52,129 nucleotides of DNA, from positions 1-52,129 of IMG/VR virus record IMGVR_UViG_3300042922_000324. The stretch is one strand, 5' to 3'. The position numbers were made by a program, and so were the translations under genes. Source of the stretch: a virus. Numbering within the stretch: the first letter of the stretch is position 1; every line of letters begins with the position of its first letter. Shown in pieces: positions 1,555-51,084 of the stretch. The notes beneath the pieces are model-generated. The model was given only the letters and a program-made list of their open reading frames with translations. It ran no database searches and had not been told where the DNA came from.

Positions 1555-1583
1555 ATGCTCACCTGTTCGATATAGGTGAGCAT
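1555..1583 (+). terminator. Intrinsic terminator whose loop is the regulatory box
   Basis: A perfect 10-bp stem (ATGCTCACCT / AGGTGAGCAT) encloses the 9-nt loop GTTCGATAT and is followed by TTTTGTG. It closes the early operon upstream of terminase. The loop is the core of the dispersed TGTWCGNTAT box, so one element carries both a termination signal and a putative operator. Confidence 0.85.
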
Positions 1584-1596
1584 TTTGTGTTATAAT
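1564..1596 (+). promoter_or_regulatory. Box plus extended -10 promoter for the terminase operon
   Basis: TGTTCGATAT at 1564-1573 matches the dispersed box. Downstream, TGT-TATAAT (-10 at 1591-1596) is an extended -10 promoter with no clear -35. It would transcribe 1640 onwards, including both terminase subunits. The same TGnTAWAAT form precedes most other virion operons. Confidence 0.7.
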
Positions 1597-1639
1597 TAAG
1601 TATGTAATATAGTACAAATCGGAGGAATGAGGTGAGTGA

Positions 1640-1933
1640 ATGAATATCCAAGAAAAAGCTAATAAGCTTATTTACGCGCTAAGCTTAAAAGGATATATTT
1701 ACTTAGTCAGTAAAGAACAGTTTTTCAGCAGCAAATTTGGCAAAGTTTGCACAAAACATAAATTATTTGAATTAATACCAGTAGAAGAATATAATTTAAG
1801 ATTTCCAGACAATAAAAAAGATCCTAAAAAATGTACTGCGGTTAAACATGAAATGATTGAAACTTTTAAACCAATAGATATTTTATTATTGCTTGCTGAT
1901 GAATATAAAAAAGTAGGTGATATTAATGGTTGA
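1640..1933 (+). CDS. Hypothetical protein upstream of terminase, 97 aa
   Basis: This ORF begins at ATG 1640 after GAGGTGAGTGA. The product is lysine-rich with one Cys pair (Cys37 and the KKCTAVKHE segment) and a hydrophobic helix near the C-terminus (IDILLLLADEYKKVG). Family unknown. It is the first gene after the terminase promoter and overlaps TerS by 8 bp, so it is probably co-expressed with packaging genes. Confidence 0.7.
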   Translation: MNIQEKANKLIYALSLKGYIYLVSKEQFFSSKFGKVCTKHKLFELIPVEEYNLRFPDNKKDPKKCTAVKHEMIETFKPIDILLLLADEYKKVGDING

Positions 1934-2321
1934 AATGACAGAAAAACAAAAGGCATTTTGTGATTATTACATAGAAACTGCAAACGCTACAGAAGCAGCA
2001 AGACTAGCAGGATATAAGGGGAAAAATTTAAATAGAATGGCATGCGAAAACATGACAAAACCATACATTAGGGAATATATAGAACAAAGATTGAAACAAA
2101 TGGAGAATAAAAGAATTGCTGATGCTAAAGAAGTTTTGGAATATTTAACTAAAGTAATGAGAGGAGAGGAAAAGGATCAGTTTGGATTGGATGCTCCTCT
2201 TAGCGAAAGAACAAAAGCCGCAGAACTAATCGGGAAAAGATATGCTTTATTCAAAGACAATGTTTCAATTGATGCTAATGTAGGAGTTAGCATAATAGAT
2301 GATATTCAAGAGGAAGAATAA
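1926..2321 (+). CDS. terS: Terminase small subunit
   Basis: TerS recognises phage DNA and delivers it to the large subunit for packaging. Residues 4-45 (EMTEKQKAFCDYYIETANAT, then EAARLAGYKG) are the helix-turn-helix signature of the Terminase_2 family, followed by a helical oligomerisation segment (IREYIEQRLKQMENKR). The C-terminus SIIDDIQEEE is the usual acidic tail. Length 131 aa is near the family norm. The start is ATG 1926, after AGGTGAT. It is followed 2 bp later by the large subunit. Confidence 0.9.
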   Translation: MVEMTEKQKAFCDYYIETANATEAARLAGYKGKNLNRMACENMTKPYIREYIEQRLKQMENKRIADAKEVLEYLTKVMRGEEKDQFGLDAPLSERTKAAELIGKRYALFKDNVSIDANVGVSIIDDIQEEE

Positions 2322-2323
2322 GA

Positions 2324-3580
2324 ATGAATACAAGGCTAAGTGATATAATTGCACCTTCTTTCTATGATGTGCATTTAGACATTAAGAAAAGACAGCATAC
2401 TCATTATTGGGAAGAAGGCGGTAGAGGAAGTACAAAATCATCTTTTGTCAGCATTGAAATAATAGTTGGAATGACAAAAAACCCTAAAGCAAACACAGTC
2501 GTTTTAATGAAAGTAAAAGACTATATAAGAGATCAAGCTTTTGAGCAATTAAAATGGGCAATAGATATTTTAGGAGTTAGCCAATACTGGAAAATAAATA
2601 TAAGCCCTTTGATGATGACTTATATACCCACAGGGCAAAAGATAATATTTAGAGGCGGAGACGATCCGAAAAAGATAAAAGGCACTAAATTTCATAACGG
2701 AAATTGTGAATATATATGGTTTGAAGAAGTTGACGCATTTAACGGAATGGAAGAACTGCGGATGATAATACAGTCTCTTATCAGAGGTAAGGATTCTAAC
2801 CCAACTGTATTTTATACATTTAACCCACCTAAAAGCATTAAGTCGTGGATCAATCAAGAGGTAGAGCAACAAAAATTAAGAGCTGATACATTAGTACACC
2901 ATAGTACTTATTTAACTGTTCCAAAGGATTGGCTTGGAGAAATATTCATAACAGAGGCGGAGCACCTAAAAAGAACTAAACCAGATGCTTATAAACACGA
3001 ATACTTGGGAGAAGCAATCGGAACAGGTGGAGAAATATTCAGCAATGTAAAAACCGAAAGAATAACTGATGAACAGATAAACCGATTTGATAAGGTTAGA
3101 AGAGGCTTGGACTGGGGTTTTGCAGTAGACCCATTTACCTATGTTGTATGTCACTTAGATAGCACCAGGAGAAGATTATATATATACTACGAGCTTTATA
3201 AAGTTGGGTTAAGCAATAGACTTGCTGCAGATGGAATAAAAGAAGAAAATAAGCTTAATAAATTAGTAATTGCAGATAGCGCAGAACCTAAATCTATTCA
3301 AGAATTAAAAGATTTTAATATAAATATCAAGGGAGCTAAAAAAGGTCCAGGGAGCGTTGAATTTGGCATTAAGTGGCTTGAGGATTTAGAAGAAATAATA
3401 ATTGACCCAGAACGTTGTCCTAATGCAAGCAGAGAATTTACATCTTATGAACTTGAAAAAGACCATAACGGCAACTTTAAGTCTAGATATCCAGATAGAG
3501 ATAACCACACCATTGATGCGATTAGGTACGCATTAGAAGATGACATGGTGGAAAGAAAGTTCAGAGTAACAAGAGTATAA
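2324..3580 (+). CDS. terL: Terminase large subunit (PBSX/Terminase_3 type)
   Basis: This is the packaging motor ATPase and nuclease, 418 aa. The N-terminal ATPase has a Walker A-like GGRGSTKS at residues 32-39 and a Walker B IWFEE near 131-135. The RNase H-like nuclease has acidic residues in LDWGFAVDP (Asp263, Asp269), an Asp in VIADSAEPKS and a C-terminal DNHTIDAIRYALED. All expected motifs are intact. It directly follows TerS. Unlike most phages, portal does not follow it but lies 5 kb downstream, beyond an accessory block. Confidence 0.95.
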   Translation: MNTRLSDIIAPSFYDVHLDIKKRQHTHYWEEGGRGSTKSSFVSIEIIVGMTKNPKANTVVLMKVKDYIRDQAFEQLKWAIDILGVSQYWKINISPLMMTYIPTGQKIIFRGGDDPKKIKGTKFHNGNCEYIWFEEVDAFNGMEELRMIIQSLIRGKDSNPTVFYTFNPPKSIKSWINQEVEQQKLRADTLVHHSTYLTVPKDWLGEIFITEAEHLKRTKPDAYKHEYLGEAIGTGGEIFSNVKTERITDEQINRFDKVRRGLDWGFAVDPFTYVVCHLDSTRRRLYIYYELYKVGLSNRLAADGIKEENKLNKLVIADSAEPKSIQELKDFNINIKGAKKGPGSVEFGIKWLEDLEEIIIDPERCPNASREFTSYELEKDHNGNFKSRYPDRDNHTIDAIRYALEDDMVERKFRVTRV

Positions 3581-3664
3581 TGTCGTAGCTCAAACGAACT
3601 ACACTAAATCCATCTTTAACGAAATGTGATTAAGTAAAATCGTACAAAAATAATAAATTAATTA

Positions 3665-3693
3665 TTGACAAGTACGCTATAGGGTAATATAAT
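3665..3693 (+). promoter_or_regulatory. Consensus sigma-A promoter of a small RNA
   Basis: TTGACA (3665-3670), a 17-bp spacer and TATAAT (3688-3693) form a perfect consensus promoter. The spacer contains AGTACGCTAT, one mismatch from the dispersed box. The nearest start codon is 197 bp beyond the -10, and the intervening DNA folds into hairpins, so an untranslated RNA is likely. Confidence 0.75.
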
Positions 3694-3699
3694 TAAATT

Positions 3700-3851: not shown

Positions 3852-3889
3852 TTAAATATAAATTAAATAATCGGAGGCGATTTTTAAAT

Positions 3890-4192: not shown

Positions 4193-4199
4193 ATGTAAA

Positions 4200-4330: not shown

Positions 4331-4336
4331 ACCCTC

Positions 4337-4435: not shown

Positions 4436-4446
4436 AAAGATTATGA

Positions 4447-4854
4447 CTATTTTTTATCTTTTATTCCTAATGTTTCTTTTAATGCTAATTGTAAAATAGC
4501 GGAAAAATTAACTTTTTTCTCAAGAGCAAGATTATCTAACCATCTAGGTATAGTTAAAGTTTTTTTAACTGCTTTATTTAACATTTCATCTCTTATTAAT
4601 TTCATATAAACTTCAACAAGCACTGTAAAACAACCCTTATCAAGTTTTAATAATTCTGGAGCAGTTGGACTGGGAATCTCTTCTTTATCTTCTTCAAAAC
4701 AATACAAATGCAGCTCAAGCGCATCTTTTGCCATTCTTAAAGCCTCTGCAATATCGTCGCCCTCTGTGATGCATCCAGGTAAATCCGGGAAAGTTACAGT
4801 ATATCCACCCTCCTCACAGACTTCAAAAATAGCCGGGAAAATATATCTATCCAT
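4447..4854 (-). CDS. hicB: HicB-like antitoxin without an adjacent HicA toxin
   Basis: The first 50 residues (YIFPAIFEVCEEGGYTVTFP and DLPGCITEGDDIAEALRMA) are the HicB partial-RNase H fold. The C-terminal 40 residues (PRWLDNLALEKKVNFSAILQ) look like a ribbon-helix-helix or HTH DNA-binding tail. In type II systems HicB neutralises the HicA mRNA interferase and represses its own operon. Here no HicA-sized ORF is found on either side. It has its own minus-strand consensus promoter and a good ribosome binding site (AAAGGAAGTG), so it may act as a stand-alone repressor or as an antitoxin against host HicA. Confidence 0.85.
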   Translation of the reverse strand: MDRYIFPAIFEVCEEGGYTVTFPDLPGCITEGDDIAEALRMAKDALELHLYCFEEDKEEIPSPTAPELLKLDKGCFTVLVEVYMKLIRDEMLNKAVKKTLTIPRWLDNLALEKKVNFSAILQLALKETLGIKDKK

Positions 4855-4876: not shown

Positions 4877-4905
4877 ATTATATACGTATAATAAAGGCGT
4901 GTCAA
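4877..4905 (-). promoter_or_regulatory. Consensus promoter for the hicB-like gene
   Basis: Read on the minus strand, TTGACA, a 17-bp spacer and TATAAT point at the hicB-like gene 23 bp downstream. It is divergent from the boxed promoter at 4939, so the 34-bp gap between the two -35 elements could allow joint control. Confidence 0.8.
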
Positions 4906-4938
4906 TGCTTAAAGGTGTTCGGGGTTTGTTTAAAATAA

Positions 4939-4980
4939 TGTACGATATTAGTTGATAAATATATTAAAATGTGGTATACT
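4939..4980 (+). promoter_or_regulatory. Boxed promoter for the AbrB-like operon
   Basis: The box TGTACGATAT (4939-4948), then 3 bp, TTGATA, a 17-bp spacer and TATACT (4975-4980). This is the standard layout of the box-promoter class in this genome (compare 7093, 13380, 27947 and 26438-26479 on minus). It drives the block beginning at 5004. Confidence 0.8.
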
Positions 4981-6680: not shown

Positions 6681-6836
6681 ATGCATGACTACAAGCTATT
6701 ATGCTCTACCAAAAGAACTGAATACTATATATCTAAAAATGGTATGCTTGCAAGAAAAACTAAAAACACATTTAAGGAACTTGGGTATATAGAAGATAAT
6801 ATGAGCTTATATAAAAAGCTATGTGAATCAATTTAG
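6681..6836 (+). CDS. Hypothetical basic protein, 51 aa
   Basis: The ATG 6681 follows GAGGTGTAAAG. The product is lysine- and tyrosine-rich (YKLLCSTKRTEYYISKNGML) and probably helical. It lies between the initiator-like gene and an XRE protein, with tight spacing. No family is recognised. Confidence 0.55.
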   Translation: MHDYKLLCSTKRTEYYISKNGMLARKTKNTFKELGYIEDNMSLYKKLCESI

Positions 6837-6849
6837 AGGAGTTGATAAA

Positions 6850-7131
6850 GTGGATGATATAAAAGAACTTCCCAGTAAATACAATCTAAAAGACTTTATC
6901 CCGGTCCGATTAAACGAGGCTATTATTGCAAGAGGTTACGCCAGGAACGAAGTAGCAGAGGCGGCAGAGATAACAACAAAGCAGCTATGTGACATTTTGA
7001 TGCAGGGCAAAGGTATAACGTTGGCTTTAGTAATAGAGTTTTCAACTATACTTGATTTTCCAGTTAGATATTTCTTTAAACCTTTGCCGCCGCGTTCGAT
7101 ATACGTTGATAGCATAACGTTTGATTTATAA
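6850..7131 (+). CDS. XRE-type helix-turn-helix protein, 93 aa
   Basis: Residues 19-75 (VRLNEAIIARGYARNEVAEA, then AEITTKQLCDILMQGKG) are a five-helix XRE domain, followed by FPVRYFFKPLPPRS. That ending normally links an XRE domain to an ImmA-type metalloprotease in HigA/ImmA-like proteins, but here the protease is absent. The start GTG 6850 follows GAGGAG. Its 3' end carries a boxed promoter for the next gene. It is likely a regulator of the accessory block. Confidence 0.8.
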   Translation: MDDIKELPSKYNLKDFIPVRLNEAIIARGYARNEVAEAAEITTKQLCDILMQGKGITLALVIEFSTILDFPVRYFFKPLPPRSIYVDSITFDL

Positions 7132-13368: not shown

Positions 13369-13379
13369 ATTTACAAAAA

Positions 13380-13421
13380 TGTCCGATTCAACTTTACAAG
13401 TAAACTTATATAGGATATAAT
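13380..13421 (+). promoter_or_regulatory. Boxed promoter for the DNA-glycosylase operon
   Basis: TGTCCGATTC (variant box), 3 bp, TTTACA (13393-13398), a 17-bp spacer and TATAAT (13416-13421). The layout is the same as at 4939 and 27947. It follows a terminator directly, making a compact terminator-box-promoter junction. Confidence 0.75.
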
Positions 13422-13455
13422 GTAATAAAGTAATAAAGTACAGAGGTGAATTGAT

Positions 13456-13854
13456 ATGAGATTATGGCATGAGGATTTAATAACATTACTACCTAAAAAG
13501 CAAATTGGAGGTCAATGGAGCGAAATTATAGGTATGCTTGGGAAAGGGTGGGGCAAAAAGCATAGAGTTGTTGATCATGTTTTCACTCACACAAAATATG
13601 ATCTATTGTTATTTGCACATTACATTTACAGAGAAGGCAGAAAAAGAGGTTTTAATTTTAATTATAGTTTGTTAGGTAAAGCTTTAAGCAGAAGCAACAC
13701 AGGCACAGCAGCAGAAAGAAGGGAAATGCTTTCTGTATGTAGGCAAGCAGCATTAACAAGCAAGATTTATAAAGAACACGACAACAATTATTTGCTTGAA
13801 TGTATAGAAAATTTAAAAAATAAAGGGATAGAATTCGAGGAGGAGAGGGAATGA
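13456..13854 (+). CDS. Pyrimidine-dimer DNA glycosylase family protein (TIGR02328-like)
   Basis: The N-terminus MRLWHEDLITLLPKKQIGGQ and the segment KGWGKKHRVVDHVFTHTKYD match the family named for T4 endonuclease V (DenV), which cuts the glycosidic bond at UV pyrimidine dimers and nicks the backbone. Small bacterial and phage members are about 120-135 aa; this one has 132. The active-site chemistry of this branch is not established by sequence alone. It has its own boxed promoter and is coupled to a YopX-like gene by ATGA, so it looks like an early-expressed moron. Confidence 0.8.
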   Translation: MRLWHEDLITLLPKKQIGGQWSEIIGMLGKGWGKKHRVVDHVFTHTKYDLLLFAHYIYREGRKRGFNFNYSLLGKALSRSNTGTAAERREMLSVCRQAALTSKIYKEHDNNYLLECIENLKNKGIEFEEERE

Positions 13855-14496: not shown

Positions 14497-14524
14497 TTAA
14501 CAACTTACCAAAATATGTTATAAT
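14497..14524 (+). promoter_or_regulatory. Promoter of structured RNA 4
   Basis: TTAACA (14497-14502), a 16-bp spacer and TATAAT (14519-14524) preceded by TG, an extended -10. Transcription would begin about 14531, at the first base of the P1 helix of the RNA. Confidence 0.7.
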
Positions 14525-14677: not shown

Positions 14678-14678
14678 T

Positions 14679-14732
14679 TGTACGATATTTATTTACTTAA
14701 CTATTGCATAATGTACGTTATTACTTTATAAT
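14679..14732 (+). promoter_or_regulatory. Double box with promoter
   Basis: Two exact boxes, TGTACGATAT (14679-14688) and TGTACGTTAT (14712-14721), are 33 bp apart in the same orientation. The second lies in the spacer of a TTGCAT-17 bp-TATAAT promoter (14704-14732). A protein bound there would cover the promoter. It drives the RHH gene at 14762. Confidence 0.7.
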
Positions 14733-16769: not shown

Positions 16770-16797
16770 AAACCGCGTAGCTATACGTGGTTTTGTT
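16770..16797 (+). terminator. Intrinsic terminator leading into the box
   Basis: A 10-bp stem AAACCGCGTA/TACGTGGTTT with loop GCTA, then TTTTG; the next box starts within its T-tract. Confidence 0.85.
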
Positions 16798-16832
16798 CGT
16801 TATAAGCTAATATTTTAAAAATGTGTTATAGT
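16794..16832 (+). promoter_or_regulatory. Box and extended -10 promoter for the capsid operon
   Basis: TGTTCGTTAT (16794-16803) is followed 23 bp later by TGT-TATAGT (-10 at 16827-16832), an extended -10 with no clear -35. It transcribes protease, capsid and connector genes. Confidence 0.65.
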
Positions 16833-16874
16833 ATTATTAGTTAATCTATATCTTACGAGAAAGGAGGAAACTTC

Positions 16875-24453: not shown

Positions 24454-24524
24454 ACAAATAAAATTAATGTGTTATAATGTACATAAGTTAGTTTGATGAC
24501 ACCTCGCCAAAGGTGTTATTTTTT
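24451..24524 (+). other. Promoter directly followed by a terminator (about 40-nt transcript)
   Basis: TTTACA (24451-24456), a 16-bp spacer and TATAAT (24473-24478) point into ACACCT/AGGTGT (24499-24516) followed by TATTTTTTT. The resulting RNA would be only about 40 nt with no ORF. Either it is a tiny RNA or the promoter once served a gene displaced by the minus-strand antirepressor operon. Confidence 0.55.
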
Positions 24525-25282
24525 TATACTCCATATTTGATAGCCATTTCTTTGACTATTGTTATATAAATTTCTCTTAAGCGAGGCTCATTTTCTAAAA
24601 CGTCTAATATGTTAATTTTATCAATTTTGTTTTTAGCCATTCCGTTCTTTGCCGCCCTCTCCTTAAGATTTAGTATTAAAACACTTGGGCGGCATTTGCC
24701 ACGCTCTTTTAATGCGTTGTAAGCTTCATCTTTTGGCTTTTGGTAATCTTCAAGTTTCATGCCTATTTTGCTCAATATTTTATTAGTCTCTTTTCTCCAT
24801 TCTGCTTGAGGATTTATTAATATAACTTCTCTTATGGTTTGAATTTCTTGCTTAGTTTCTTGAAATATTTCTGTCATTTGTTTATTGTATATTTCCTGTT
24901 CTGCTATAGATTGGCTAAGCTTAAGAATTAATTGCGTTTCTAGACTTAATTTGGTAGTATCAATAGACGACTTTTTAAGTTTTTCTTCACAGTTGATAAA
25001 ATAATTTCTATACTCATGTGATTTTTCTGTTCGTGCCATCATAGCTATATGTTTTGCAAATTCTAAAGATATTGCAAAATCCATTGTTTCATTACCTTCC
25101 GCATTGTGCGGAACCCCTATCCAATCAATGTTTTCACTAAAATATTCGTTTTTCTCAACATTAGTTACGTACCACCTGGACCAGTCTGCTTTTCTCAATC
25201 CTAATCCTAAATATAATTCTTTTGCGCCAACTAATTGTTTACCATCTTTTTCAGTTATCTTTATTAAATCATTCATCTGCAT
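24524..25282 (-). CDS. AntA-type antirepressor with ORF6C domain, 252 aa
   Basis: Residues 15-100 (KQLVGAKELYLGLGLRKADW, then FSENIDWIGVP, and DFAISLEFAKHIAMMARTEK) are the AntA/AntB domain. The C-terminal 95 residues, from AEWRKETNKILSKIG, match the ORF6C domain found behind many phage antirepressor N-termini. Such proteins bind phage repressors and help induction. It is the last gene of a minus-strand operon driven from 26438. Confidence 0.85.
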   Translation of the reverse strand: MQMNDLIKITEKDGKQLVGAKELYLGLGLRKADWSRWYVTNVEKNEYFSENIDWIGVPHNAEGNETMDFAISLEFAKHIAMMARTEKSHEYRNYFINCEEKLKKSSIDTTKLSLETQLILKLSQSIAEQEIYNKQMTEIFQETKQEIQTIREVILINPQAEWRKETNKILSKIGMKLEDYQKPKDEAYNALKERGKCRPSVLILNLKERAAKNGMAKNKIDKINILDVLENEPRLREIYITIVKEMAIKYGV

Positions 25283-26255: not shown

Positions 26256-26417
26256 TTATTTTTTATTTTGCTTGTCAATATATTCTTGTAACGCATCCCT
26301 AATATGTTCAGCTTGAGTTTTGCCATCTCTGCCACTCGATTTAGCTCCAACAGTTATGCTATTGTCTATAAGCCAGTCTCTTTGTTCTTTTGTCAGATAC
26401 ACTTGAGTTCTTTCCAC
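26256..26417 (-). CDS. Ribbon-helix-helix-like protein, 53 aa
   Basis: The GTG start lies behind AAGGGGGTGATACA on the minus strand. ERTQVYLTKEQRDWL is strand then helix, and KTQAEHIRDALQEYID is the second helix of a CopG/Arc-type fold. As the first gene after the boxed minus-strand promoter it is a candidate autorepressor of the antirepressor operon. Confidence 0.65.
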   Translation of the reverse strand: MERTQVYLTKEQRDWLIDNSITVGAKSSGRDGKTQAEHIRDALQEYIDKQNKK

Positions 26418-26437: not shown

Positions 26438-26479
26438 ATTATAATTAAACAACATATATTTGTCAATTAATATCGTACA
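26438..26479 (-). promoter_or_regulatory. Boxed promoter of the minus-strand antirepressor operon
   Basis: On the minus strand: TGTACGATAT (26479-26470), 3 bp, TTGACA, a 17-bp spacer, TATAAT (26443-26438). This is the strict box layout on the opposite strand and the best evidence that box orientation follows transcription. It is divergent from the promoters at 26510 and 26580. Confidence 0.85.
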
Positions 26480-26509
26480 TAATAACAAATATCTTACATA
26501 AAAAATTCG

Positions 26510-27046: not shown

Positions 27047-27057
27047 GAGTGTGTATT

Positions 27058-27906
27058 ATGGAAAATAAAATTGAAGTTTACAAAAATGAGGAATTAGGAC
27101 AAATAAAGATTGCTTTTCTTAACAAAGAAATGGTTTTTAATCTTCACGATAGTTGTTGGAACTTAGGCTATACAACTAAAAACAATGAAGGCAAAACTTA
27201 TCTTTATAAAAGCAGAATAGAAAAAATATGTTCAAGCCTTGAAATAACTGGCGTTGACACAACGTCAACGGAATTAAAACCGATAAATACAAATACTGAC
27301 TTTGAAAACACATGGATAAACGAACAAGCTTTTTATGATCTATGTTTAGAAAGTAAAGCCAAAAACGCAAGAGCTTTCCGCGGATGGGTAACAGGTGAGG
27401 TTTTACCGTCTATCCGTGCCACTGGCAGTTATATCGCAAATAAAGCCTATACAGAGGCTTGTGCATCTACTACAGTACAAGACATCAAAATAATAGACGT
27501 TGCCCTCTCTACAGTCCTTAAAGTAATGACAGAGGCGCAAATAAATCCTATGTCGAAGCTAATGGCTGTCAAAGAGTTTTATAATAAAATAGGTTTAGAA
27601 ATACCTACTGGAGTAAATGAAAAAGAAAAATTCTATACAGCAGCAGAATTAGCGCAAATGTGTGGAGTTTATTACAAGAATGGTTATATTGCGAAAGATG
27701 CAATTTCAGCTGTTATAAATCAGTTGGATTTATCAGAAAGCGAAAAATTATACTATATAGATGAAAAGGGTAATAAAGCTATGAAGTGTAAAGAATCAGT
27801 GACTTTAAAAATTGCTGAATGGTTTGTTTATAGAGGATTCCCCAAAATAATCAGAGGCGAACAAATAGAACATGAAGTAATGTATAAATCTCCTAAAATA
27901 GAATAA
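27058..27906 (+). CDS. BRO-N antirepressor, 282 aa
   Basis: The first 120 residues (QIKIAFLNKEMVFNLHDSCW, WINEQAFYDLCLESKAKNAR, FRGWVTGEVLPSIRATGSYI) are the BRO-N domain. The C-terminal half (TAAELAQMCGVYYKNGYIAK) includes a second DNA-binding-like domain typical of phage antirepressors. It should disrupt repressor function. It is the second antirepressor in this block, on the opposite strand from the AntA protein. Confidence 0.9.
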   Translation: MENKIEVYKNEELGQIKIAFLNKEMVFNLHDSCWNLGYTTKNNEGKTYLYKSRIEKICSSLEITGVDTTSTELKPINTNTDFENTWINEQAFYDLCLESKAKNARAFRGWVTGEVLPSIRATGSYIANKAYTEACASTTVQDIKIIDVALSTVLKVMTEAQINPMSKLMAVKEFYNKIGLEIPTGVNEKEKFYTAAELAQMCGVYYKNGYIAKDAISAVINQLDLSESEKLYYIDEKGNKAMKCKESVTLKIAEWFVYRGFPKIIRGEQIEHEVMYKSPKIE

Positions 27907-27935: not shown

Positions 27936-27946
27936 TCAAAACATTT

Positions 27947-27988
27947 TGTACGTTATAGCTTTACAAATAATTCGATATATGTTAATAT
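27947..27988 (+). promoter_or_regulatory. Boxed promoter for the 28-30 kb operon
   Basis: TGTACGTTAT (27947-27956), 3 bp, TTTACA, a 17-bp spacer, TAATAT (27983-27988). It drives the genes from 28028 to the sigma factor at 30674. Confidence 0.8.
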
Positions 27989-30674: not shown

Positions 30675-30685
30675 ATATGCCCGCA

Positions 30686-30695
30686 TGTTCGATAT
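30686..30695 (+). promoter_or_regulatory. Box TGTTCGATAT after the sigma gene
   Basis: An exact box between the sigma factor stop and the terminator at 30708. GCAT/ATGC flank its core as a small hairpin. The tape-measure -10 is 45 bp downstream, so here the box cannot touch the promoter directly. Confidence 0.6.
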
Positions 30696-30707
30696 GCACT
30701 AATAATA

Positions 30708-30737
30708 AGCTAGTTACGTACTAGCTTTTCTTTTTTC
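30708..30737 (+). terminator. Intrinsic terminator before tape measure
   Basis: AGCTAGT-TACGT-ACTAGCT and TTTCTTTTTTC. The same stem sequence is found in the terminator after the tape measure gene. Confidence 0.9.
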
Positions 30738-39145: not shown

Positions 39146-39169
39146 AAGGGCGGTTAATCCGCTCTTTTG
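39146..39169 (+). terminator. Intrinsic terminator fused to a box
   Basis: AAGGGCGG/CCGCTCTT (one G-T pair) followed by TTTTG. The last T of the tract starts the box TGTACGTTAT. Confidence 0.8.
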
Positions 39170-39197
39170 TACGTTATTACTTAAAAAATGTTATAAT
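39168..39197 (+). promoter_or_regulatory. Box and extended -10 promoter of the lysis operon
   Basis: TGTACGTTAT (39168-39177) and TGT-TATAAT (-10 at 39192-39197). The box occupies the place where a -35 would lie. It drives the ComEA-like gene, holins and endolysin. Confidence 0.7.
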
Positions 39198-39242
39198 AAT
39201 TATATACATTAAAGCTATATCTTATCGGAGGGAGGTGGCTTG

Positions 39243-39572
39243 GTGTGGAATAAAATTGAAAGAAATAAAAGTTCTACATTTGTATTGTTAATAGCTTTAA
39301 TAGCTTTATCGGCAGGCTTTTTTATGGGTTCAACATTTGGTAATTATGTAAAAGTTGAGCAAAATGTAAATGTAAATACGGACAGAGAAAAAACTAAGAT
39401 AAATCTAAATGATGCCACTGAAAAAGAATTAATGACACTGCCAGGAATTGGAGAGGTTAAAGCCAAAAATATTATAGATAGTAGACCTTTTAAAAGCACC
39501 ACACAATTAAAAAATATTGTCGGAGATAAAATATATAATTCCATTCTAGATATGGTGGAGGTGAGTTATTGA
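39243..39572 (+). CDS. Membrane-anchored ComEA-like helix-hairpin-helix protein, 109 aa
   Basis: One N-terminal membrane helix (residues 12-30), a short polar linker, then residues 53-105 with INLNDATEKELMTLPGIGEV, KAKNIIDSRPFKSTTQ, LKNIVGDKIYNSI: the helix-hairpin-helix DNA-binding pair of ComEA, the competence DNA receptor. GTG 39243 has better spacing to GGAGG than TTG 39240. It heads the lysis operon. A surface DNA-binding protein made late in infection is unexpected. Confidence 0.85.
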   Translation: MWNKIERNKSSTFVLLIALIALSAGFFMGSTFGNYVKVEQNVNVNTDREKTKINLNDATEKELMTLPGIGEVKAKNIIDSRPFKSTTQLKNIVGDKIYNSILDMVEVSY

Positions 39573-39873: not shown

Positions 39874-40770
39874 ATGAATAATTTAGATTTAGTAGTTTAT
39901 GCTAAAAAAGCATTAAGCGAAAAATGGGGTTATGTTTGGGGTACTTTTGGACAGCTATTAACCAATGAATTATTACAACAAAAAATAGCTCAATATCCTA
40001 GTGGCGTTGGTGATTATGAAAGCTTTATAAAAAACAATTGGCTTAATAAAAAAGTTTCTGATTGCGTAGGATTAATTAAAGGCGCTTATTGGTCCGAAAG
40101 TGGAAATTTAAAATATGATTCTAATACTGATGTTTCTGCTGATACAATGTTTAATTTAGCTAAAATAAAAGGCAACATGAGCGATATGCCAGATATGCCA
40201 GGATTGTGTTTATGGAAAGCTGGACATATAGGCATATATATAGGTAATGGGTTGGTTATAGAGGCTAATAGCACACTTAAAGGTGTAATACAAACACCAC
40301 TTTTGGGAACTGGGCGTACTCCTTGGACTAATTGGCTAGAATGCCCTTATATAGAATATATTAAACGAGAAACAGAACCCACTATAGAATATCAATCGCA
40401 AGTTCAATTATTAGGCTGGCAAGAATGGAAAGCGGATGGCGAAGTTTCTGGAACAGAGGGCAAATCTCTTAGGCTTGAAGCTCTAGCGATAAATGTAGAT
40501 AAAGGAAATATAGAGTTTAGCGGTCACATTCAAAATGTTGGCTGGCAAGAAAATAGACATAATGGAGAAATAATAGGAACAGTAGGCAGAGGATTAAGGC
40601 TTGAGGCTGTCAAAATTAAGTTAATTGATTTACCAGGATATAGCGTGCAATATCAATCACATGTAGAAGGTATAGGCTGGATGGATTGGTGCTACGATGG
40701 CGAAGTTTCCGGAACAGTTGGCAGAGAATTAAGGATAGAATCTATTAAAATAAAAATAGTTAAAAAATAA
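39874..40770 (+). CDS. Endolysin: NlpC/P60-type peptidase with three ChW repeats
   Basis: The catalytic domain has Cys64 (VSDCVGLIKG), His118 (KAGHIGIYIG) and a further acidic residue near Glu130, and starts with the GYVWGTFGQ segment of clostridial endolysins. Three ChW wall-binding repeats follow at about 174-208, 215-249 and 260-295 (GWQEWKADGEVSGTEGKSLR, GWQENRHNGEIIGTVGRGLR, GWMDWCYDGEVSGTVGRELR). ChW repeats are characteristic of Clostridium surface proteins and support host assignment. It cleaves peptidoglycan stem peptides or cross-bridges. Confidence 0.9.
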   Translation: MNNLDLVVYAKKALSEKWGYVWGTFGQLLTNELLQQKIAQYPSGVGDYESFIKNNWLNKKVSDCVGLIKGAYWSESGNLKYDSNTDVSADTMFNLAKIKGNMSDMPDMPGLCLWKAGHIGIYIGNGLVIEANSTLKGVIQTPLLGTGRTPWTNWLECPYIEYIKRETEPTIEYQSQVQLLGWQEWKADGEVSGTEGKSLRLEALAINVDKGNIEFSGHIQNVGWQENRHNGEIIGTVGRGLRLEAVKIKLIDLPGYSVQYQSHVEGIGWMDWCYDGEVSGTVGRELRIESIKIKIVKK

Positions 40771-41190: not shown

Positions 41191-41216
41191 AAAAATAAAA
41201 AGGGATAAACCCTTTA
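41191..41216 (-). terminator. Terminator of the recombinase gene
   Basis: On minus, AAAGGG-TTTAT-CCCTTT followed by TTATTTTTG, overlapping the recombinase stop codon. The 35-40 bp between this and the bidirectional terminator would be the most likely place for attP if it adjoins the gene's 3' end. Confidence 0.75.
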
Positions 41217-42806
41217 TAATCTTGGATGCACATCTAATGTTTCACCGTCCCAATATATCACTTCGACTAATTCATTTACAATTCTTTTCTTTTCAGTCAT
41301 AGTCAAAGATTGAAAGTTATTAATTAAATATTTAGTGGTATTATTAAATATTTCAAAGTTCATAGTTTTAATTACAGTATCATTTTTATCACTTTTTAAA
41401 AGTGTTATCTTTTTATTTAACTCTTTTATTTCCTCGTCTAACTTTTCTATTTTTTGCACAATGTATTTGCTTGCTGTAGAATTTTCAGCATCAATTAATT
41501 TTTCTGTTAATTTACCGATATCCTTAGATAATTTTTCAATTTGAGCTTGAAAATTTTTTATATCTTTTTCAATATTGTCAGTTTCTAATAACTGTTTATT
41601 TTGATTAAATAATTCTTTTGCTCCTTCATGGTCATAATATGTCCGTTTAAATTGCTCTATAAACAGTTTATCCGCTTGTATGCCTGCTATATTTTTAATG
41701 CTGCAGCTTTTGCCTTTGGTTAGAACTTTATTGGAACATCTATAATAATGATTTTTTCTTACTCCATTATCATAATCCGCAGTCACGCTAAAGAATCCGC
41801 CGCAATTACTGCAGCGAATTAATCCAGCAAGTAAAGCGTCCATTGCTTGCCCTTGTCTTGGAAACTTGTCTGCATTTCTTAAAAATCGTTCTTGTACATC
41901 AATCCACTTTTCAGATTCTATGCAGTATGAGTGCCTACCTATTGCAATTATCCACTCGCTAGTATCTTTATATACTATTTTCTTTTTAGATTGATCTTGC
42001 TTGTTATAGCACATAACACCATATTCGTTATTATCTCTAAATTCTTCAACAGAGTTACAAATTTGCATATTATTTTTCTTAGCATAATTATAAAAATTTA
42101 TATCAGCTTTACAATAAAACGGATTCGAAAGTATGCGCCTAACAGAATTTATATTAAATGTTTTACCATTTTCGGTTTTAATATCATTATCTATCAAATA
42201 TTTATTAGTGCTATTTAAACTGTTAAATTCTATATATTTTTTAAACATAATTTTTACTTTATCTATATTTGAATTATCTATATCTAAATAACATTCTTTC
42301 CCTATGCCTATTTTTTTATAGCCAAAAGGTGTATTCCCTCCTAACCATTTGCCGCTTTTAGAAAGCTCTAACATGTTGTCTCTAACTCTTTCTGCGATAG
42401 TTTCTCTTTCTAATTGTGCAAACACACCAGCAATATACAACATAGCTCTACCCATTGGCGAAGTGGTGTCAAATTGCTCTCTTATAGATATAAATTCTAT
42501 ATTGTACTCTTGCAAATCTTCAATTATTTTAGCAAAGTCGCCTATATTTCTGCTTATTCTATCTAATCTATAGCAGAGAATTATATTAAACATTTTATTT
42601 TTGGCATCCTTCATCATTTTAGAAAAGTTAGGGCGGTCAATATTGCCGCCGCTAAATCCTTCATCCTCATAAACAAAGATATCGTTTACTTTTTTATAGT
42701 TTTTATGTATGTATTCTTTACACATTTGAACTTGGTTTTCTACGCTATCTGAATTCTCTATGTATCTGCTTTTGCGACTATATATCGCTATGTTTAAATT
42801 ATCCAT
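41214..42806 (-). CDS. int: Large serine recombinase (integrase), 530 aa
   Basis: Integrates and, with a directionality factor, excises the prophage. N-terminal resolvase domain with catalytic Ser10 (IAIYSRKS), then ILCYRLDRISRNIGDFAKII and AMLYIAGVFAQLERETIAER. A Recombinase domain follows (GGNTPFGYKKIG, SVRRILSNPFYCKADINF). The zinc ribbon is at CSNCGGFFSVTADYD with later Cys residues, then a coiled coil (KDIKNFQAQIEKLSKDIGKL). Start ATG 42806 after AATGGTGAAAATT. All core elements are intact. Confidence 0.95.
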   Translation of the reverse strand: MDNLNIAIYSRKSRYIENSDSVENQVQMCKEYIHKNYKKVNDIFVYEDEGFSGGNIDRPNFSKMMKDAKNKMFNIILCYRLDRISRNIGDFAKIIEDLQEYNIEFISIREQFDTTSPMGRAMLYIAGVFAQLERETIAERVRDNMLELSKSGKWLGGNTPFGYKKIGIGKECYLDIDNSNIDKVKIMFKKYIEFNSLNSTNKYLIDNDIKTENGKTFNINSVRRILSNPFYCKADINFYNYAKKNNMQICNSVEEFRDNNEYGVMCYNKQDQSKKKIVYKDTSEWIIAIGRHSYCIESEKWIDVQERFLRNADKFPRQGQAMDALLAGLIRCSNCGGFFSVTADYDNGVRKNHYYRCSNKVLTKGKSCSIKNIAGIQADKLFIEQFKRTYYDHEGAKELFNQNKQLLETDNIEKDIKNFQAQIEKLSKDIGKLTEKLIDAENSTASKYIVQKIEKLDEEIKELNKKITLLKSDKNDTVIKTMNFEIFNNTTKYLINNFQSLTMTEKKRIVNELVEVIYWDGETLDVHPRL

Positions 42807-42951
42807 AATTTTCACCATTTTCCGAACAGACTTTTAACAATAATTCAATTTCCTTCTCATTAAGATAGACAAATTCCCCATTGACTCTGATTGCTAGAAC
42901 CCCTTTCATTTTGTCGTTTTCTTTGTTGCTTGTACCTTTTTGTACGGACAT
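42799..42951 (-). CDS. Hypothetical protein between repressor and recombinase, 50 aa
   Basis: The minus-strand ATG follows GCGGGGGTGTTTTT. KGVLAIRVNGEFVYLNEKEI followed by LLLKVCSENGENYG suggests a small beta-hairpin/helix protein. It overlaps the recombinase by 8 bp, so it may be a recombinase partner or directionality factor candidate, though no motif says so. Confidence 0.6.
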   Translation of the reverse strand: MSVQKGTSNKENDKMKGVLAIRVNGEFVYLNEKEIELLLKVCSENGENYG

Positions 42952-42965: not shown

Positions 42966-43379
42966 TTATTTGTCTTTGTCGTTCTTTTTATCCTCTTGTG
43001 CATTTGGTAAAAATTTAGATGTTAATATTTTTTTAAGTTCATCATGTTCTTTTATAATAGCGTACATTTGTTCGTATGTCAATCCGTTAGGAAAAACATG
43101 CTTTGACAAAAATAGGTCATATAATAACCCATCTTTTTCAATTGAATTGACAAGAATCTCGTCTTGTTCTTCAAGTTCTGTATCTCCTAGCAACCATGAT
43201 ATAGGCACGTTTAAAGCTGCAGCTATGTCCGCCGCTTTTTTCATACTAGGAACTGCTTTGCTATTTTCAACGTCGGATAAAAAACTTGCACTTACTTTGC
43301 TTTCTTCTCCCAACTTTCTTAGACTCCACCCTAATTCTTCTCTTTTGCTTTTCATTCTAATTCCAATTTCTTTAAACAT
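42966..43379 (-). CDS. CI-like XRE repressor, 137 aa
   Basis: Residues 5-65 (IGIRMKSKREELGWSLRKLG, EESKVSASFLSDVENSKAVP) are an XRE HTH. The C-terminal part is helical and charged, with no LexA-type peptidase; the last 13 residues are a Lys/Asp tail. It is expected to keep lysogeny by blocking the rightward early promoters and to be the target of the antirepressors. It is the first gene of the minus-strand lysogeny operon. Confidence 0.85.
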   Translation of the reverse strand: MFKEIGIRMKSKREELGWSLRKLGEESKVSASFLSDVENSKAVPSMKKAADIAAALNVPISWLLGDTELEEQDEILVNSIEKDGLLYDLFLSKHVFPNGLTYEQMYAIIKEHDELKKILTSKFLPNAQEDKKNDKDK

Positions 43380-43483: not shown

Positions 43484-43512
43484 ATTATACACGCAACAAA
43501 TGTAAAGTACAA
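43484..43512 (-). promoter_or_regulatory. Repressor promoter
   Basis: Minus-strand TTGTAC, a 17-bp spacer and TATAAT, about 105 bp upstream of the repressor ATG. The long leader may hold control sites. Confidence 0.7.
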
Positions 43513-43623
43513 GCGTAAAATTGTGCAAAATTGATTAACATAAAGCATTAGAAGAATAGTCCTCTCTCATACTCTCTCATGCTCGTTTATGCTGTTATTT
43601 GCTAAAATATAAGAGTTGAAAAA

Positions 43624-43666
43624 TGTTCGCTATTAGTTTACAATTAAATCATGCTAAACGTTAAAT
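43624..43666 (+). promoter_or_regulatory. Boxed promoter of the early operon
   Basis: TGTTCGCTAT (43624-43633), 3 bp, TTTACA (43637-43642), then 18 bp and TTAAAT. The layout is that of the box class, which places the same signal on the main early promoter as on the accessory promoters. Confidence 0.65.
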
Positions 43667-43699
43667 GTTAATCAACAGCAAACAAAAGGAGGTTTAAAA

Positions 43700-43936: not shown

Positions 43937-44051
43937 TGGCAACTGGGGCAAAAATAGCAATGTTAGTAAATCTTTTACTGCACTGATGTTCGATATAACA
44001 TTACAAAATGTTTTAAAATCGGACAATGAGAAAAATAAGAAAGTTAATTAA
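43920..44051 (+). CDS. Hypothetical small protein, 43 aa
   Basis: ATG 43920 lies inside the cro-like gene, behind AAGGAAGTGGATAAT. The product MKVKFNGNWGKNSNVSKSFT is basic and Asn-rich. A full box occurs inside it at 43987-43996, so the DNA could be both coding and regulatory. Confidence 0.5.
   Translation: MKVKFNGNWGKNSNVSKSFTALMFDITLQNVLKSDNEKNKKVN
43987..43996 (+). promoter_or_regulatory. Box TGTTCGATAT within a small early ORF
   Basis: Exact box followed by AAC-ATTACA, as in the -35 layout, but no good -10 occurs 17 bp later. It is the only exact box inside a predicted coding region. Confidence 0.5.
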
Positions 44052-46781: not shown

Positions 46782-46910
46782 ATGAGATTAGTTTGCGCAG
46801 GTAAAATCACAAAGTGCGTTAAAGAAATTTCTTACGCCCCTAAGTTCGGAATAGCTGAACAAAATAAAAAGGAAGGTGAGAAGTTTGTTAATAAAAAGCT
46901 TACAAGGTAA
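46782..46910 (+). CDS. Hypothetical basic protein, 42 aa
   Basis: ATG follows AAAGGAGAAAAATT. MRLVCAGKITKCVKEISYAP, then a lysine-rich tail. The final 26 bp overlap the next gene. Its size makes it uncertain, though the ribosome binding site is good. Confidence 0.5.
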   Translation: MRLVCAGKITKCVKEISYAPKFGIAEQNKKEGEKFVNKKLTR

Positions 46911-47190
46911 ATTGTTTAAAGTAGATCATACGGAACTTTATATTAAACCTTTTTTCAAAGACGGAATTGCGAATGAGTATTCCATATGCACCAATGGAGG
47001 AAATGTTGAGATAATAATTGTTACTTATTCTGACAAAGAAATAGCTAAGCACATGCTTAAGCTGCTTGATTTATATAAAAAGCATCCTTGTGAAGTTAAT
47101 GTTTTGTCGGAAACTACAATTGCGCGTGATTTATGGTTAATAGCTTGTAGCAGATACAAAGTTGCATGTGAAAAGAAGGGAATAAAGTAA
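46885..47190 (+). CDS. Hypothetical protein, 101 aa
   Basis: TTG start after GGAAGGTGAGAAG. Alpha/beta sequence (LFKVDHTELYIKPFFKDGIA, IIIVTYSDKEIAKHMLKLLD) without known motifs. One-base overlap with the next gene. Found in an early operon with replication genes. Confidence 0.65.
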   Translation: MLIKSLQGKLFKVDHTELYIKPFFKDGIANEYSICTNGGNVEIIIVTYSDKEIAKHMLKLLDLYKKHPCEVNVLSETTIARDLWLIACSRYKVACEKKGIK

Positions 47191-47411
47191 TGGTTGGAAA
47201 TAGAATACCTTTTAATGATGTTTTAAAGCTCCAGGACGACACTTTAGTGTACTTGCTAGGGGATACGTCCCCTTTAAGATACATTGAGCATGTAGGCGAT
47301 AAAATAACACTTCACAGGCTATGCAGTGATGACAGAATATTTTTTAATAAAACTACAGAAAAATTATTAAATCTAAAAATATATGAGTGGAAAGTGGAGG
47401 GATTAAATTGA
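47190..47411 (+). CDS. Hypothetical protein, 73 aa
   Basis: TAATG overlap with the upstream stop. Beta-rich (LQDDTLVYLLGDTSPLRYIE, DKITLHRLCSDDRIFF). It overlaps the SpoIIID start by 4 bp and so is coupled to it. No family is recognised. Confidence 0.65.
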   Translation: MVGNRIPFNDVLKLQDDTLVYLLGDTSPLRYIEHVGDKITLHRLCSDDRIFFNKTTEKLLNLKIYEWKVEGLN

Positions 47412-47656
47412 AAAATGAAGTGGTCCAAGAAAGAGTTTTAAAGGTTGCTAAATTTACAATACTAACCAACAGCACTATAAGAGCTACTGCAAAAATGTTC
47501 GGGGTTAGTAAGAGCACCATAGGGATGGATTTAAGCAAGAGAATAAATATCTTGAATCCAAAGCTTGCAGAGGAAGTTAAAAAAGTTTTGGATAATAACT
47601 TTAGTGAGAAGCATGTTAGAGGTGGCAATGCTACAAAACTAAAATACAAAAGTTAG
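47408..47656 (+). CDS. spoIIID: SpoIIID homologue, 82 aa
   Basis: SpoIIID is a mother-cell transcription factor of endospore formation. The HTH at residues 22-45 (STIRATAKMFGVSKSTIGMD) and the hallmark tail EKHVRGGNATKLKYK (67-81) are both present; length is close to the bacterial protein. TTG start after TGGAGGGATTAAA. A phage copy could reprogramme a sporulating host or regulate phage genes by binding SpoIIID-type sites. The next 142 bp carry an operator-like inverted repeat. Confidence 0.9.
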   Translation: MKNEVVQERVLKVAKFTILTNSTIRATAKMFGVSKSTIGMDLSKRINILNPKLAEEVKKVLDNNFSEKHVRGGNATKLKYKS

Positions 47657-47712
47657 GGAGTAGGAATTTGAGGGCAGAAGTAAAGGCTTGTGAGATATTT
47701 TTTTACCCATGA

Positions 47713-47776
47713 TGTACGCTATAACTTAATTATTTTATAAAAAGTGTAGCAAAATGTTAAGTTATAGCGTATAATA
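47713..47776. promoter_or_regulatory. Paired inverted boxes flanking a promoter region
   Basis: TACGCTATAACTTAA (47715-47729) and its exact reverse complement (47757-47771) face each other across 27 bp. The left copy is part of an exact box TGTACGCTAT at 47713. The right copy runs into TATAAT (47771-47776), the -10 for the gene at 47799. Two 15-bp perfect arms imply a dimeric or looped regulatory protein, perhaps the HTH protein encoded immediately downstream. Confidence 0.75.
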
Positions 47777-47798: not shown

Positions 47799-47966
47799 TT
47801 GATAAAGATAGCAGAACTTACAAAGGAACTTGATGTTCACGTAAATACGGTATACAAGATGATTAAACAAGGTATGCCACATTATAAACTTGAAAAAGAT
47901 TATAGGTTTGATATCGAAGAGGTTAAAAATTGGCTAAAAGAAAGAAATAATAAAAGAGGTGATTAA
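47799..47966 (+). CDS. Excisionase-type HTH protein, 55 aa
   Basis: TTG start behind GAGGGTGATAAG. IKIAELTKELDVHVNTVYKM followed by KQGMPHYKLEKDYRFDIEEV is a MerR-like HTH_17 domain. It stands directly behind the paired inverted boxes and is a candidate binder of them. It could also be the recombination directionality partner, though it is not next to the recombinase. Confidence 0.8.
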   Translation: MIKIAELTKELDVHVNTVYKMIKQGMPHYKLEKDYRFDIEEVKNWLKERNNKRGD

Positions 47967-48164: not shown

Positions 48165-48176
48165 GAAGGTGATTAA

Positions 48177-49743: not shown

Positions 49744-49756
49744 AAAGGTGATGATT

Positions 49757-49999
49757 ATGAGCAATACAGCAGCAAGATTAAACCAAGGCAAAGACAAAAT
49801 AATAATCTTAGAAGGCTTTGACTTCATGTGGGACACAAAAAAGATTGATGAAGTAATAGAGCTATGGAATAATGGTACAGCATTACAAGAAATGGTTTGT
49901 AAAGCTAAAAGGAGAGAGGAAGAATTATTCTTGCTACTGTTACATCTATCTCTGAAAGGAAGGATTAAAAAGAGGGGTAGAGGGATTTGGGGAAATTAA
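49757..49999 (+). CDS. Hypothetical helical protein, 80 aa
   Basis: ATG after AAAGGTGATGATT. KIDEVIELWNNGTALQEMVC, then EEELFLLLLHLSLKGRIKKR: looks like an HTH related to small sigma-region-4-like phage proteins; a basic tail follows. No clear family. It lies next to helicase loader genes. Confidence 0.6.
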   Translation: MSNTAARLNQGKDKIIILEGFDFMWDTKKIDEVIELWNNGTALQEMVCKAKRREEELFLLLLHLSLKGRIKKRGRGIWGN

Positions 50000-50044
50000 A
50001 TAAGTCGTAATAGCTAATTATAACGAATCAAGGAGGATATAAAA

Positions 50045-50452
50045 ATGAACAACGATTTGATGTTTAGCAGTAAATCTAATGAATGGGCTACACCACAGAA
50101 ACTATATAACAAGCTCAATAGCGAATTTCATTTCACTTTAGATGCTGCAAGCACACACGAAAACGCGAAATGTGAAAGGCATTTTACTATAGAAGAAGAT
50201 GGATTGATGCAAGATTGGAGCAATGAAGTTGTATGGCTTAATCCTCCTTACGGTAGAAAGATAGATGAATGGATTTTTAAAGGATGGAATGAAGCTCTTT
50301 GGAATAATGCTACTGTAGTATGCTTAATACCTGCTAGAACGGACACAAAGTATTGGCATGATTACTGTATGGATGCATCGGAAATACGGTTTATAAAGGG
50401 TAGATTGAAGTTTGGCGATAGTAAGAATGCTGCCCCTTCCCTAGTGCCTTAA
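50045..50452 (+). CDS. dam: Phage Dam-type N6-adenine methyltransferase, truncated by a frameshift
   Basis: Motifs of the phage Dam family: FSSKSNEWATPQKLYNKLNS, FTLDAASTHENAKCERHFT, the catalytic NPPYG (66-70) and RFIKGRLKFGDS near the end. Translation stops after AAPSLVP, but in another frame the expected ending APFPSALIVFKPSK is encoded directly afterwards. One C is missing from the C run at 50433-50436 (4 instead of the needed 5). The catalytic core remains, so activity may or may not survive. Confidence 0.85.
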   Translation: MNNDLMFSSKSNEWATPQKLYNKLNSEFHFTLDAASTHENAKCERHFTIEEDGLMQDWSNEVVWLNPPYGRKIDEWIFKGWNEALWNNATVVCLIPARTDTKYWHDYCMDASEIRFIKGRLKFGDSKNAAPSLVP

Positions 50453-50511
50453 TCGTATTTAAACCAAGCAAAAGCGATTTAAAAGTGATTAGTTATAAGG
50501 ACACAATTTGA
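50437..50511 (+). pseudogene. Out-of-frame C-terminal tail of the Dam gene
   Basis: Read one frame over, this stretch gives FPSALIVFKPSKSDLKVISY before TGA at 50509-50511. That ending is expected for the methyltransferase, so it is the displaced 3' end rather than intergenic DNA. It is consistent with a single-base deletion in the C run at 50433-50436, natural or from sequencing. Confidence 0.75.
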
Positions 50512-50541
50512 AAATAATACGAACTAAATTGGAGGTGCAAA

Positions 50542-51066
50542 ATGATATTAAAAGAATTATTTAAAACTCAAAGAAAACTTGATGAAAAGATAATTGAAAA
50601 TCATAATCTACATGGAAGGGACTTATTCAGTAGGAAGATAGCCGCGTTTGTTGTGGAAATGAGCGAAATGGCAAACGAAATTAGGTTTTTTAAATACTGG
50701 TCGAATAAAGGACCATCACTAAAGGAAACCATACTGGAAGAATATATCGATTCACTCCACTTTCTATTAAGCATCGGTAATGAAATTGAAGAAATATATA
50801 ATCTTGGCGAATCAATTAAAAACTTTGAATATGAGCCTTATTTGAACTATAAAGATTTTACAGATAACTTTATTGAAATCATAAGGGAAATATGTAAACT
50901 AGAATATTATTCAGACAGCAAAATGATGTCTTGGCAGCTATATATAGAAGTTATGAATATGCTGCTAGGCTGGGGAAATAAGCTGGGATTTGGATTTAAA
51001 GAAATAGAAACAGGATACTACAAGAAAAATGAGATTAATTTTAAAAGACAGGATAGTAATTATTAA
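50542..51066 (+). CDS. dut: dUTPase, dimeric type, 174 aa
   Basis: Converts dUTP to dUMP, keeping uracil out of phage DNA. FVVEMSEMANEIRFFKYWSN with Glu39, Glu42 and Glu46 and the second site EEYIDSLHFLLSIG are the metal-binding helices of the dUTPase_2/MazG-like family. ATG after TTGGAGGTGCAAA. It is part of the nucleotide and recombination end of the early operon. Confidence 0.85.
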   Translation: MILKELFKTQRKLDEKIIENHNLHGRDLFSRKIAAFVVEMSEMANEIRFFKYWSNKGPSLKETILEEYIDSLHFLLSIGNEIEEIYNLGESIKNFEYEPYLNYKDFTDNFIEIIREICKLEYYSDSKMMSWQLYIEVMNMLLGWGNKLGFGFKEIETGYYKKNEINFKRQDSNY

Positions 51067-51074
51067 TATATCTG

Positions 51075-51084
51075 TGTTCGATAT
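51075..51084 (+). promoter_or_regulatory. Box TGTTCGATAT upstream of the resolvase gene
   Basis: Exact box in the 37-bp gap between dUTPase and the resolvase, followed by AGC and TTAATT, then a ribosome binding site. There is no room for a normal -10, so here the box is not a promoter element; a roadblock or silencer use would fit. Confidence 0.55.

Follow-up and report, generated by a model that had tools for sequence, protein, structure and literature searches.

Operators of the c1 repressor of phage P1 and the conserved inverted repeats of phiC31 are repressor sites scattered in one phage genome, with motifs and repressors other than those described here. In L5-type phages, as set out in PMC9283540, a monomeric repressor with a helix-turn-helix (HTH) and a Stoperator domain binds asymmetric 13-bp sites, the stoperators; the repressors of P1, P7, L5, Bxb1 and phi105 bind multiple asymmetric operators, according to PMC1934351. 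In SPbeta, the 15-bp motif SPBRE is bound by MrpR, the master lysogeny repressor, which displays a tyrosine recombinase fold (PMC10516654). Here we describe a dispersed box, TGTWCGHTAT, in a viral stretch of 52,129 nucleotides (IMGVR_UViG_3300042922_000324, positions 1 to 52,129; hereafter the window), both ends of which share a repeat, consistent with a complete phage genome. The boxes are probably the operators of the phage's own lysogeny repressor, an XRE protein encoded at 42966-43379, which would silence many promoters at once.

Dispersed repressor operators are already known from L5 and SPbeta, and the present array is a clear further example of them, not a system of a new type. With phages L5, L1 and TipsytheTRex, whose genomes each carry more than 20 asymmetric repressor sites in promoters and short intergenic gaps, mostly along transcription (PMC9283540, PMC1934351), it shares this general layout. 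The L5-type sites are, however, 13 bp long and bound by a monomer, whereas those of the window are ~21 bp long, exhibit a partial dyad, often occur as phased pairs and lie mostly on promoters, a transcriptional roadblock being hypothetical here. Neither does the repressor follow the L5 type: the motif of ~20 bp has a partial dyad, and the protein is an HTH_3 repressor in which no other Pfam domain passes the cut-off. The SPBRE/MrpR system is similar as a dispersed repeat in the promoter regions of one Firmicute prophage, about ten promoters being named in PMC10516654, but the motif differs and the likely binder here is of the XRE/HTH_3 type. The integrase of the window (41214-42818) is a serine recombinase. 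Bacillus phage phi105 has a repressor of XRE type that shares 33% identity in part of the HTH region, and asymmetric repeats starting with TTGTA (TTGTATTTCCG) upstream of the repressor gene; their core is TTTCCG instead of CGHTAT, and the comparison covers only the 2.4-kb immunity region of phi105. No XRE repressor associated with this motif was found in the literature searched, whose coverage was partial and does not prove absence.

The box array is real and conserved. All 13 exact copies of TGTWCGHTAT listed in the first-pass annotation, which was made from the sequence by eye, are present at their positions, and a fourteenth that it had missed is located on the minus strand at 43057-43066, within the repressor gene. 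Counting both strands, these 14 copies compare with a mean of 0.43 (standard deviation 0.71, largest value 3) in 100 dinucleotide shuffles, a control for which similar counts had been named beforehand as evidence against the array. Allowing one mismatch gives 37 matches against 21.9 expected, so single variants require other support. Among the variants proposed by eye, 3671 and 7093 stand with one mismatch each, while 13380 (TGTCCGATTC) fares less well, with three mismatches by eye count. The claim that all exact copies but one are intergenic holds for the enlarged set: 13 of 14 are wholly noncoding, as are 20 of the 23 sites of the matrix described below, in a genome that is 9.3% noncoding according to our manual gene set. 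The plus strand carries 12 of the 14 exact copies, and each of the two others coincides with a promoter that is also on the minus strand; the reported agreement of box polarity with transcription applies to the exact copies, the weaker partner sites often being reversed. Boxes beginning at the T-tract of a terminator were seen by eye, for example at 13380, 14679 and 27947; at 30686, the terminator comes after the box.

The 10-mer understates the motif. Alignment of the 14 copies reveals conservation up to about base 20 (TGTWCGHTAT-WASYTTAYAA), and the full site is an asymmetric, imperfect dyad of ~21 bp, approximately TTGTWCGHTAT-WASYTTAYAA, of which TGTWCGHTAT forms the strong half. When the strong half TGTWCGHTA is compared with the weak half as it reads on the opposite strand, TRTWAARYTW, the outer TTGTW/WACAA agree and the inner CG is present in the left half only. 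A perfect palindrome was considered and finds no support in the dyad scoring. An iterated matrix with a threshold above 13 bits identifies 23 sites in the window and 24 in a related contig, G001, against 0.7 per random sequence (30 random sequences of first-order composition); the window count is inflated by training on the window itself, and G001, as a relative, does not provide an independent test.

The position of the sites relative to promoters is the first line of evidence for repression. Promoters were ranked by a home-made sigma-A score, and 18 site clusters were compared with 600 background windows. Ten clusters (1564, 3671, 4939, 7093, 13380, 14712, 26470, 27947, 43057 and 43624) exhibit a promoter that reaches at least the 94.7th background percentile, and each time the 21-bp site overlaps the -35, the spacer or the -10; the remaining eight (16794, 30686, 39168, 40640, 43987, 46843, 47713 and 51075) have weaker promoters or none. 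Three geometries can be distinguished. In the first, the box lies 3 bp before the -35 (4939, 7093, 13380, 26470 on the minus strand, and 27947), and promoter scoring recovers at these five places the order box, 3 bp, -35, 17 bp, -10 noted in the first-pass annotation. In the second, the box falls within the spacer or on the -10 (3671, 14712, 43624 and 43057). Site 43624 had been described as similar to the first group, but its better promoter, TTGAAA-17-TACAAT, has the box in the spacer and scores 14.6 against 11.5 for the box-upstream arrangement. In the third, the box covers the -35, at 1564 and at the weaker promoters of 39168 and 43987. These three geometries fit steric repression, and the occurrence of a site over core promoter elements in ten of ten cases favours a repressor operator over an activator. 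Although five promoters do display the order expected of an activator box just upstream of the -35, such a function, which had been offered as an option, is very unlikely: the position of the box varies, being in the spacer or over the -10 in the second group and over the -35 at 1564 and 39168, several boxed promoters are full consensus (TTGACA-17-TATAAT) and need no activator, and a single activator serving early, late and integrase genes would be odd.

Of 22 predicted intergenic promoters, 13 have a site with a score above 8 no more than 40 bp away, some of these promoters probably being echoes of the sites themselves, and nine have none. Among those without a box, the one at 4905 (minus) would serve a HicB-like gene, and the promoter predicted for the repressor itself (43512, minus) bears a weak site only; both fit an escape of lysogenic genes from repression. 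Other unboxed promoters, at 14497, 24451, 26580, 10785, 32696, 23665 and in the end-repeat copy at 102/52104, have no role assigned to them. A predicted promoter inside the repressor gene (TTGACA-17-TATTAT, 43057-43082, minus) is directed toward the serine integrase and carries a box on its -10; conservation of this site says little, because it is coding.

Comparison with G001 (IMGVR_UViG_3300042923_000318, 56,134 bp) provides the second line of evidence. This contig contains 15 box copies against one control match, and 22 of the 23 matrix sites align to it. Among key site bases, 1 of 176 is changed, whereas 109 of 1546 noncoding bases in the vicinity are (P = 1.2e-4); when all 22 site columns are taken, 20 of 480 bases differ (P = 0.024). 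Conservation in a related phage, which the first-pass annotation had suggested looking at, is borne out by these values. The terminase small and large subunit genes of the window (1917-3580) have no G001 match by tblastn at 1e-3, G001 carrying a different set there, and the boxed junctions on either side of the swapped genes are kept. The possibility that the boxes are recombination joints was rejected: 6 of 38 homology breakpoints lie within 20 bp of a site against 0.92 expected genome-wide, yet at noncoding positions the count is 6 of 20 against 4.27 (P = 0.24). Scanning for other array-bearing contigs with a degenerate 20-bp pattern returned 19 stretches, of which two are G001 and the other 17 are loci with one box each, chance matches by their appearance; two repressor scans yielded no prophages in genome contigs. 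Host LexA (SOS) boxes, like an artefact of chance or composition, are an explanation of negligible probability. TGTTCG does resemble half of the Bacillus SOS box CGAACATATGTTCG (PMC8270828), but GAACN4GTTC is absent from both the window and G001, the W of the box is A as often as T, and chance is excluded by the shuffle controls.

Numerous sites have a partner less than 50 bp away, in inverted, tandem or divergent arrangement (Table 1). The distances between pair centres in the window are 34, 43, 44, 33, 45, 19, 22, 42, 43 and 42 bp, to which is added one of 23 bp recognised as a pair only in G001, and they fall near two, three or four helical turns. Against uniform distances of 18-50 bp with a free period of 10-12 bp, and excluding a pair of sites that overlap (15 bp) as well as pairs in G001 that repeat those of the window, phasing reaches P = 0.0027 for 11 pairs, and P = 0.00035 once two pairs of 33 bp from Thermoanaerobacterium phage THSA-485A are added. 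As the score threshold and the distance window were picked after the data had been seen, these values make the helical phasing suggestive.

The XRE repressor is most likely the protein that binds the sites, judging from its family and from its relatives. It matches HTH_3 (PF01381, 47.9 bits for a cut-off of 23) as well as phrog_8 and phrog_4. Its Pfam matches include no peptidase domain, and it is 76% identical in G001, the recognition helix SASFLSD being the same in both. It fits best among the candidates named in the first-pass annotation. The Cro-like protein is just 46% identical in G001 and its recognition helix differs though the sites are kept, which argues against it as the main binder; for the HTH protein at 47799, also set aside, no G001 ortholog was found, the only match (34%) being to another HTH gene. 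Among 50,697 phage records, the best match to the repressor is that of phage THSA-485A (46.7% identity over 60 residues, in the HTH). The repressor/cro interval of THSA-485A harbors four copies of TGTCCGATA, arranged as two pairs 33 bp apart, while TGTNCGATA is expected 0.78 times in its whole genome, and all four copies are kept in three further contigs with 93-94% identical repressors. THSA-485A and the window therefore have in common the strong half-site, a related repressor HTH and the 33-bp pairing, and they differ in that the sites of THSA-485A are confined to the repressor/cro interval.

A second relative, G003, came from a capsid search that returned 35 loci, for which full records were examined for the box pattern in two cases and for the repressor in six. 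This 55,980-bp contig has a 74% identical capsid protein and 64-73% DNA identity to the window in 11 pieces, integrase DNA among them. It does not carry the array, with two matches to TGTNCGNTA against six control matches. An intergenic word count revealed no clear replacement array, returning mainly ribosome-binding-site words where the same count in the window shows box words, and TTGTAC is not in excess genome-wide (34 against 29.5). Its repressor, 32-35% identical, is of the same family and ends in the same C-terminal FPNG-TY segment, but has a different recognition helix, VSSSLINAVENSR. G003 thus keeps the backbone and a 41% identical SpoIIID without the array, which indicates that the array follows the repressor type and not the backbone or SpoIIID. 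Relatives whose junctions have no box were what the first-pass annotation had named as speaking against its reading, and G003 does show such junctions; given the differing helix, the absence of the boxes may reflect a change of specificity. The G003 repressor/cro interval (L091 205-436) contains four TTGTAC copies, possible operators of the G003 repressor.

Another phage regulator could in principle bind the boxes, namely the SpoIIID homolog (47387-47656), the ribbon-helix-helix (RHH) protein (26256-26417) or the HTH protein at 6823-7131. SpoIIID is a clear family member, the three proteins are 94%, 100% and 99% identical in G001, respectively, so that G001 alone is insufficient to exclude them, and the RHH and 6823 proteins occur with the array and not in G003. 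We nevertheless consider this unlikely: none of the three has a match in THSA-485A, which holds box-like operators and in which, of the window proteins searched, only the XRE repressor finds a match, and G003 has its SpoIIID and no array.

Several observations weigh against repression by the XRE protein. Matrix sites 43057 and 40640 are well within genes and 46895 is at a gene start (3 of 23). The dyad is weak, an alternative centre 6.5 bp off scoring 3.76 against 3.69. The link to THSA-485A involves a single clade, with C in place of W at one base, and that phage is devoid of a dispersed array; no such operator cluster was seen at four loci whose HTH domains are 50-53% identical to that of THSA-485A, nor in the more distant phi105, phiC2, Jimmer2, Javan242 and Fusobacterium homologs. 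The RHH and 6823 proteins likewise occur only with the array, and the AlphaFold model of the repressor, with a pLDDT of 41, was not used. On the other side stand the location of the sites on core promoter elements, their retention in G001 and their match with operators beside a related repressor, and on these the operator array proposed in the first-pass annotation remains our preferred reading.

In such an array, the XRE/HTH_3 protein would recognise the ~21-bp imperfect dyad, probably as a dimer, at sites located over promoters of early, replication, packaging, capsid, antirepressor, lysis-side and integrase genes. RNA polymerase would thereby be kept from all boxed promoters simultaneously, possibly with cooperativity between sites, and release would probably be brought about by the antirepressors AntA (24524-25282, boxed promoter) and Bro-N (27049-27906). 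AntA is 100% identical in G001, and searches for it in G003 and THSA-485A did not find it. The first-pass annotation had also invoked mycobacteriophage L5 stoperators, in which repressor at promoter-less sites also stops elongating RNA polymerase. The repressor-site array of that concept stands; the roadblock seems improbable here. Sites 51075, 30686, 46843/46895 and 40640 have no good promoter, and the exact copies lie mostly along transcription, as reported for L5 (PMC9283540). Just a handful of sites fit, however, 30686 lies before a terminator, partner sites face against transcription as often as along it, and 46895 and 40640 are coding. Equally doubtful is a broader proposal, that operator pairs in helical phase throughout the prophage allow one small XRE repressor to form cooperative, possibly bridged complexes, which would shut down nearly all lytic promoters and prevent read-through between operons; in this lineage, such an architecture would have developed out of a compact operator of the immunity region, as in THSA-485A or G003.

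Table 1. Box sites and the proposed repressor gene in the window
Feature	Coordinates	Strand	Context
Inverted pair 1564(+)/1607(-)	1563-1617	+	Centres 34 bp apart; upstream of gene at 1640 and terminase small subunit; TCGATA-18-TATAAT overlaps first site
Divergent pair 3637(-)/3671(+)	3627-3690	+	Centres 43 bp apart; 3671 in spacer of TTGACA-17-TATAAT
Site 4939	4938-4958	+	Overlaps -35 TTGATA of rightward promoter; second site 23 bp off in G001
Weak site 7093, one mismatch	7092-7112	+	Overlaps -35 TTGATA; inside end of open reading frame 6823-7131
Inverted pair 13380(+)/13433(-)	13379-13443	+	Centres 44 bp apart; flank TTTACA-17-TATAAT
Tandem pair 14679/14712	14678-14731	+	33 bp apart; 14712 in spacer and over -10 of TTGCAT-17-TATAAT
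Inverted pair 16794(+)/16848(-)	16793-16858	+	Centres 45 bp apart; protease/capsid genes follow; no good promoter by the score used
Tandem pair 26470(-)/26489(-)	26460-26499	-	19 bp apart; on TTGACA-17-TATAAT of leftward AntA antirepressor operon
Tandem pair 27947/27969	27946-27988	+	22 bp apart; on TTTACA-17-TAATAT
Site 30686	30685-30705	+	Upstream of tape measure gene; intrinsic terminator 30707-30727 follows closely; no good promoter
Site 39168	39167-39187	+	Over predicted -35, upstream of 39240-39572; promoter score 91st percentile
XRE (HTH_3) repressor, proposed site binder	42966-43379	-	Pfam, PHROG and homolog matches
Site 43057(-) in repressor gene	43047-43067	-	Spacer and over -10 of TTGACA-17-TATTAT, reading toward 42799-42951 and serine integrase
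Weak site 43510(-)	43500-43520	-	At repressor's own predicted promoter TTGTAC-17-TATAAT
Inverted pair 43624(+)/43675(-)	43623-43685	+	Centres 42 bp apart; upstream of Cro-like gene; 43624 in spacer of TTGAAA-17-TACAAT
Site 43987	43986-44006	+	Between Cro-like gene and 44064; promoter weak, 83.5th percentile
Weak inverted pair 46843(+)/46895(-)	46842-46905	+	Centres 43 bp apart; at start of 46876-47190; no promoter found
Inverted pair 47713(+)/47764(-)	47712-47774	+	Centres 42 bp apart; second site overlaps TATAAT
Site 51075	51074-51094	+	Between 50542-51066 and 51104, in a gap of 37 bp; no good promoter

Other genes of the window give indications on the host. The homolog of SpoIIID, the stage III sporulation regulator, matches PF12116 at 2.6e-29, and the presence of such a gene in a phage suggests a spore-forming host. 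The predicted lysin (39874-40770) has a region resembling NlpC/P60 together with three ChW (clostridial hydrophobic W) repeats, hinting at a clostridial host. A HicB-like antitoxin gene (4447-4854, minus) is preceded by a consensus promoter without a box, which diverges from a boxed one, and a protein with a pyrimidine dimer DNA glycosylase domain (13456-13854) is encoded behind a boxed promoter pair.

The array adds a well-delimited XRE-repressor case, in a low-GC phage with a sporulation-regulator homolog, to the few phages in which scattered operators are known to control lysogeny. With the site defined, the lytic regulon would become readable from sequence, including the integrase promoter within the repressor gene. 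Finally, G001, in which the array is kept, G003, with the same backbone and without the array, and THSA-485A, with the same half-site undispersed, make the origin of a genome-wide operator array from a compact one testable.

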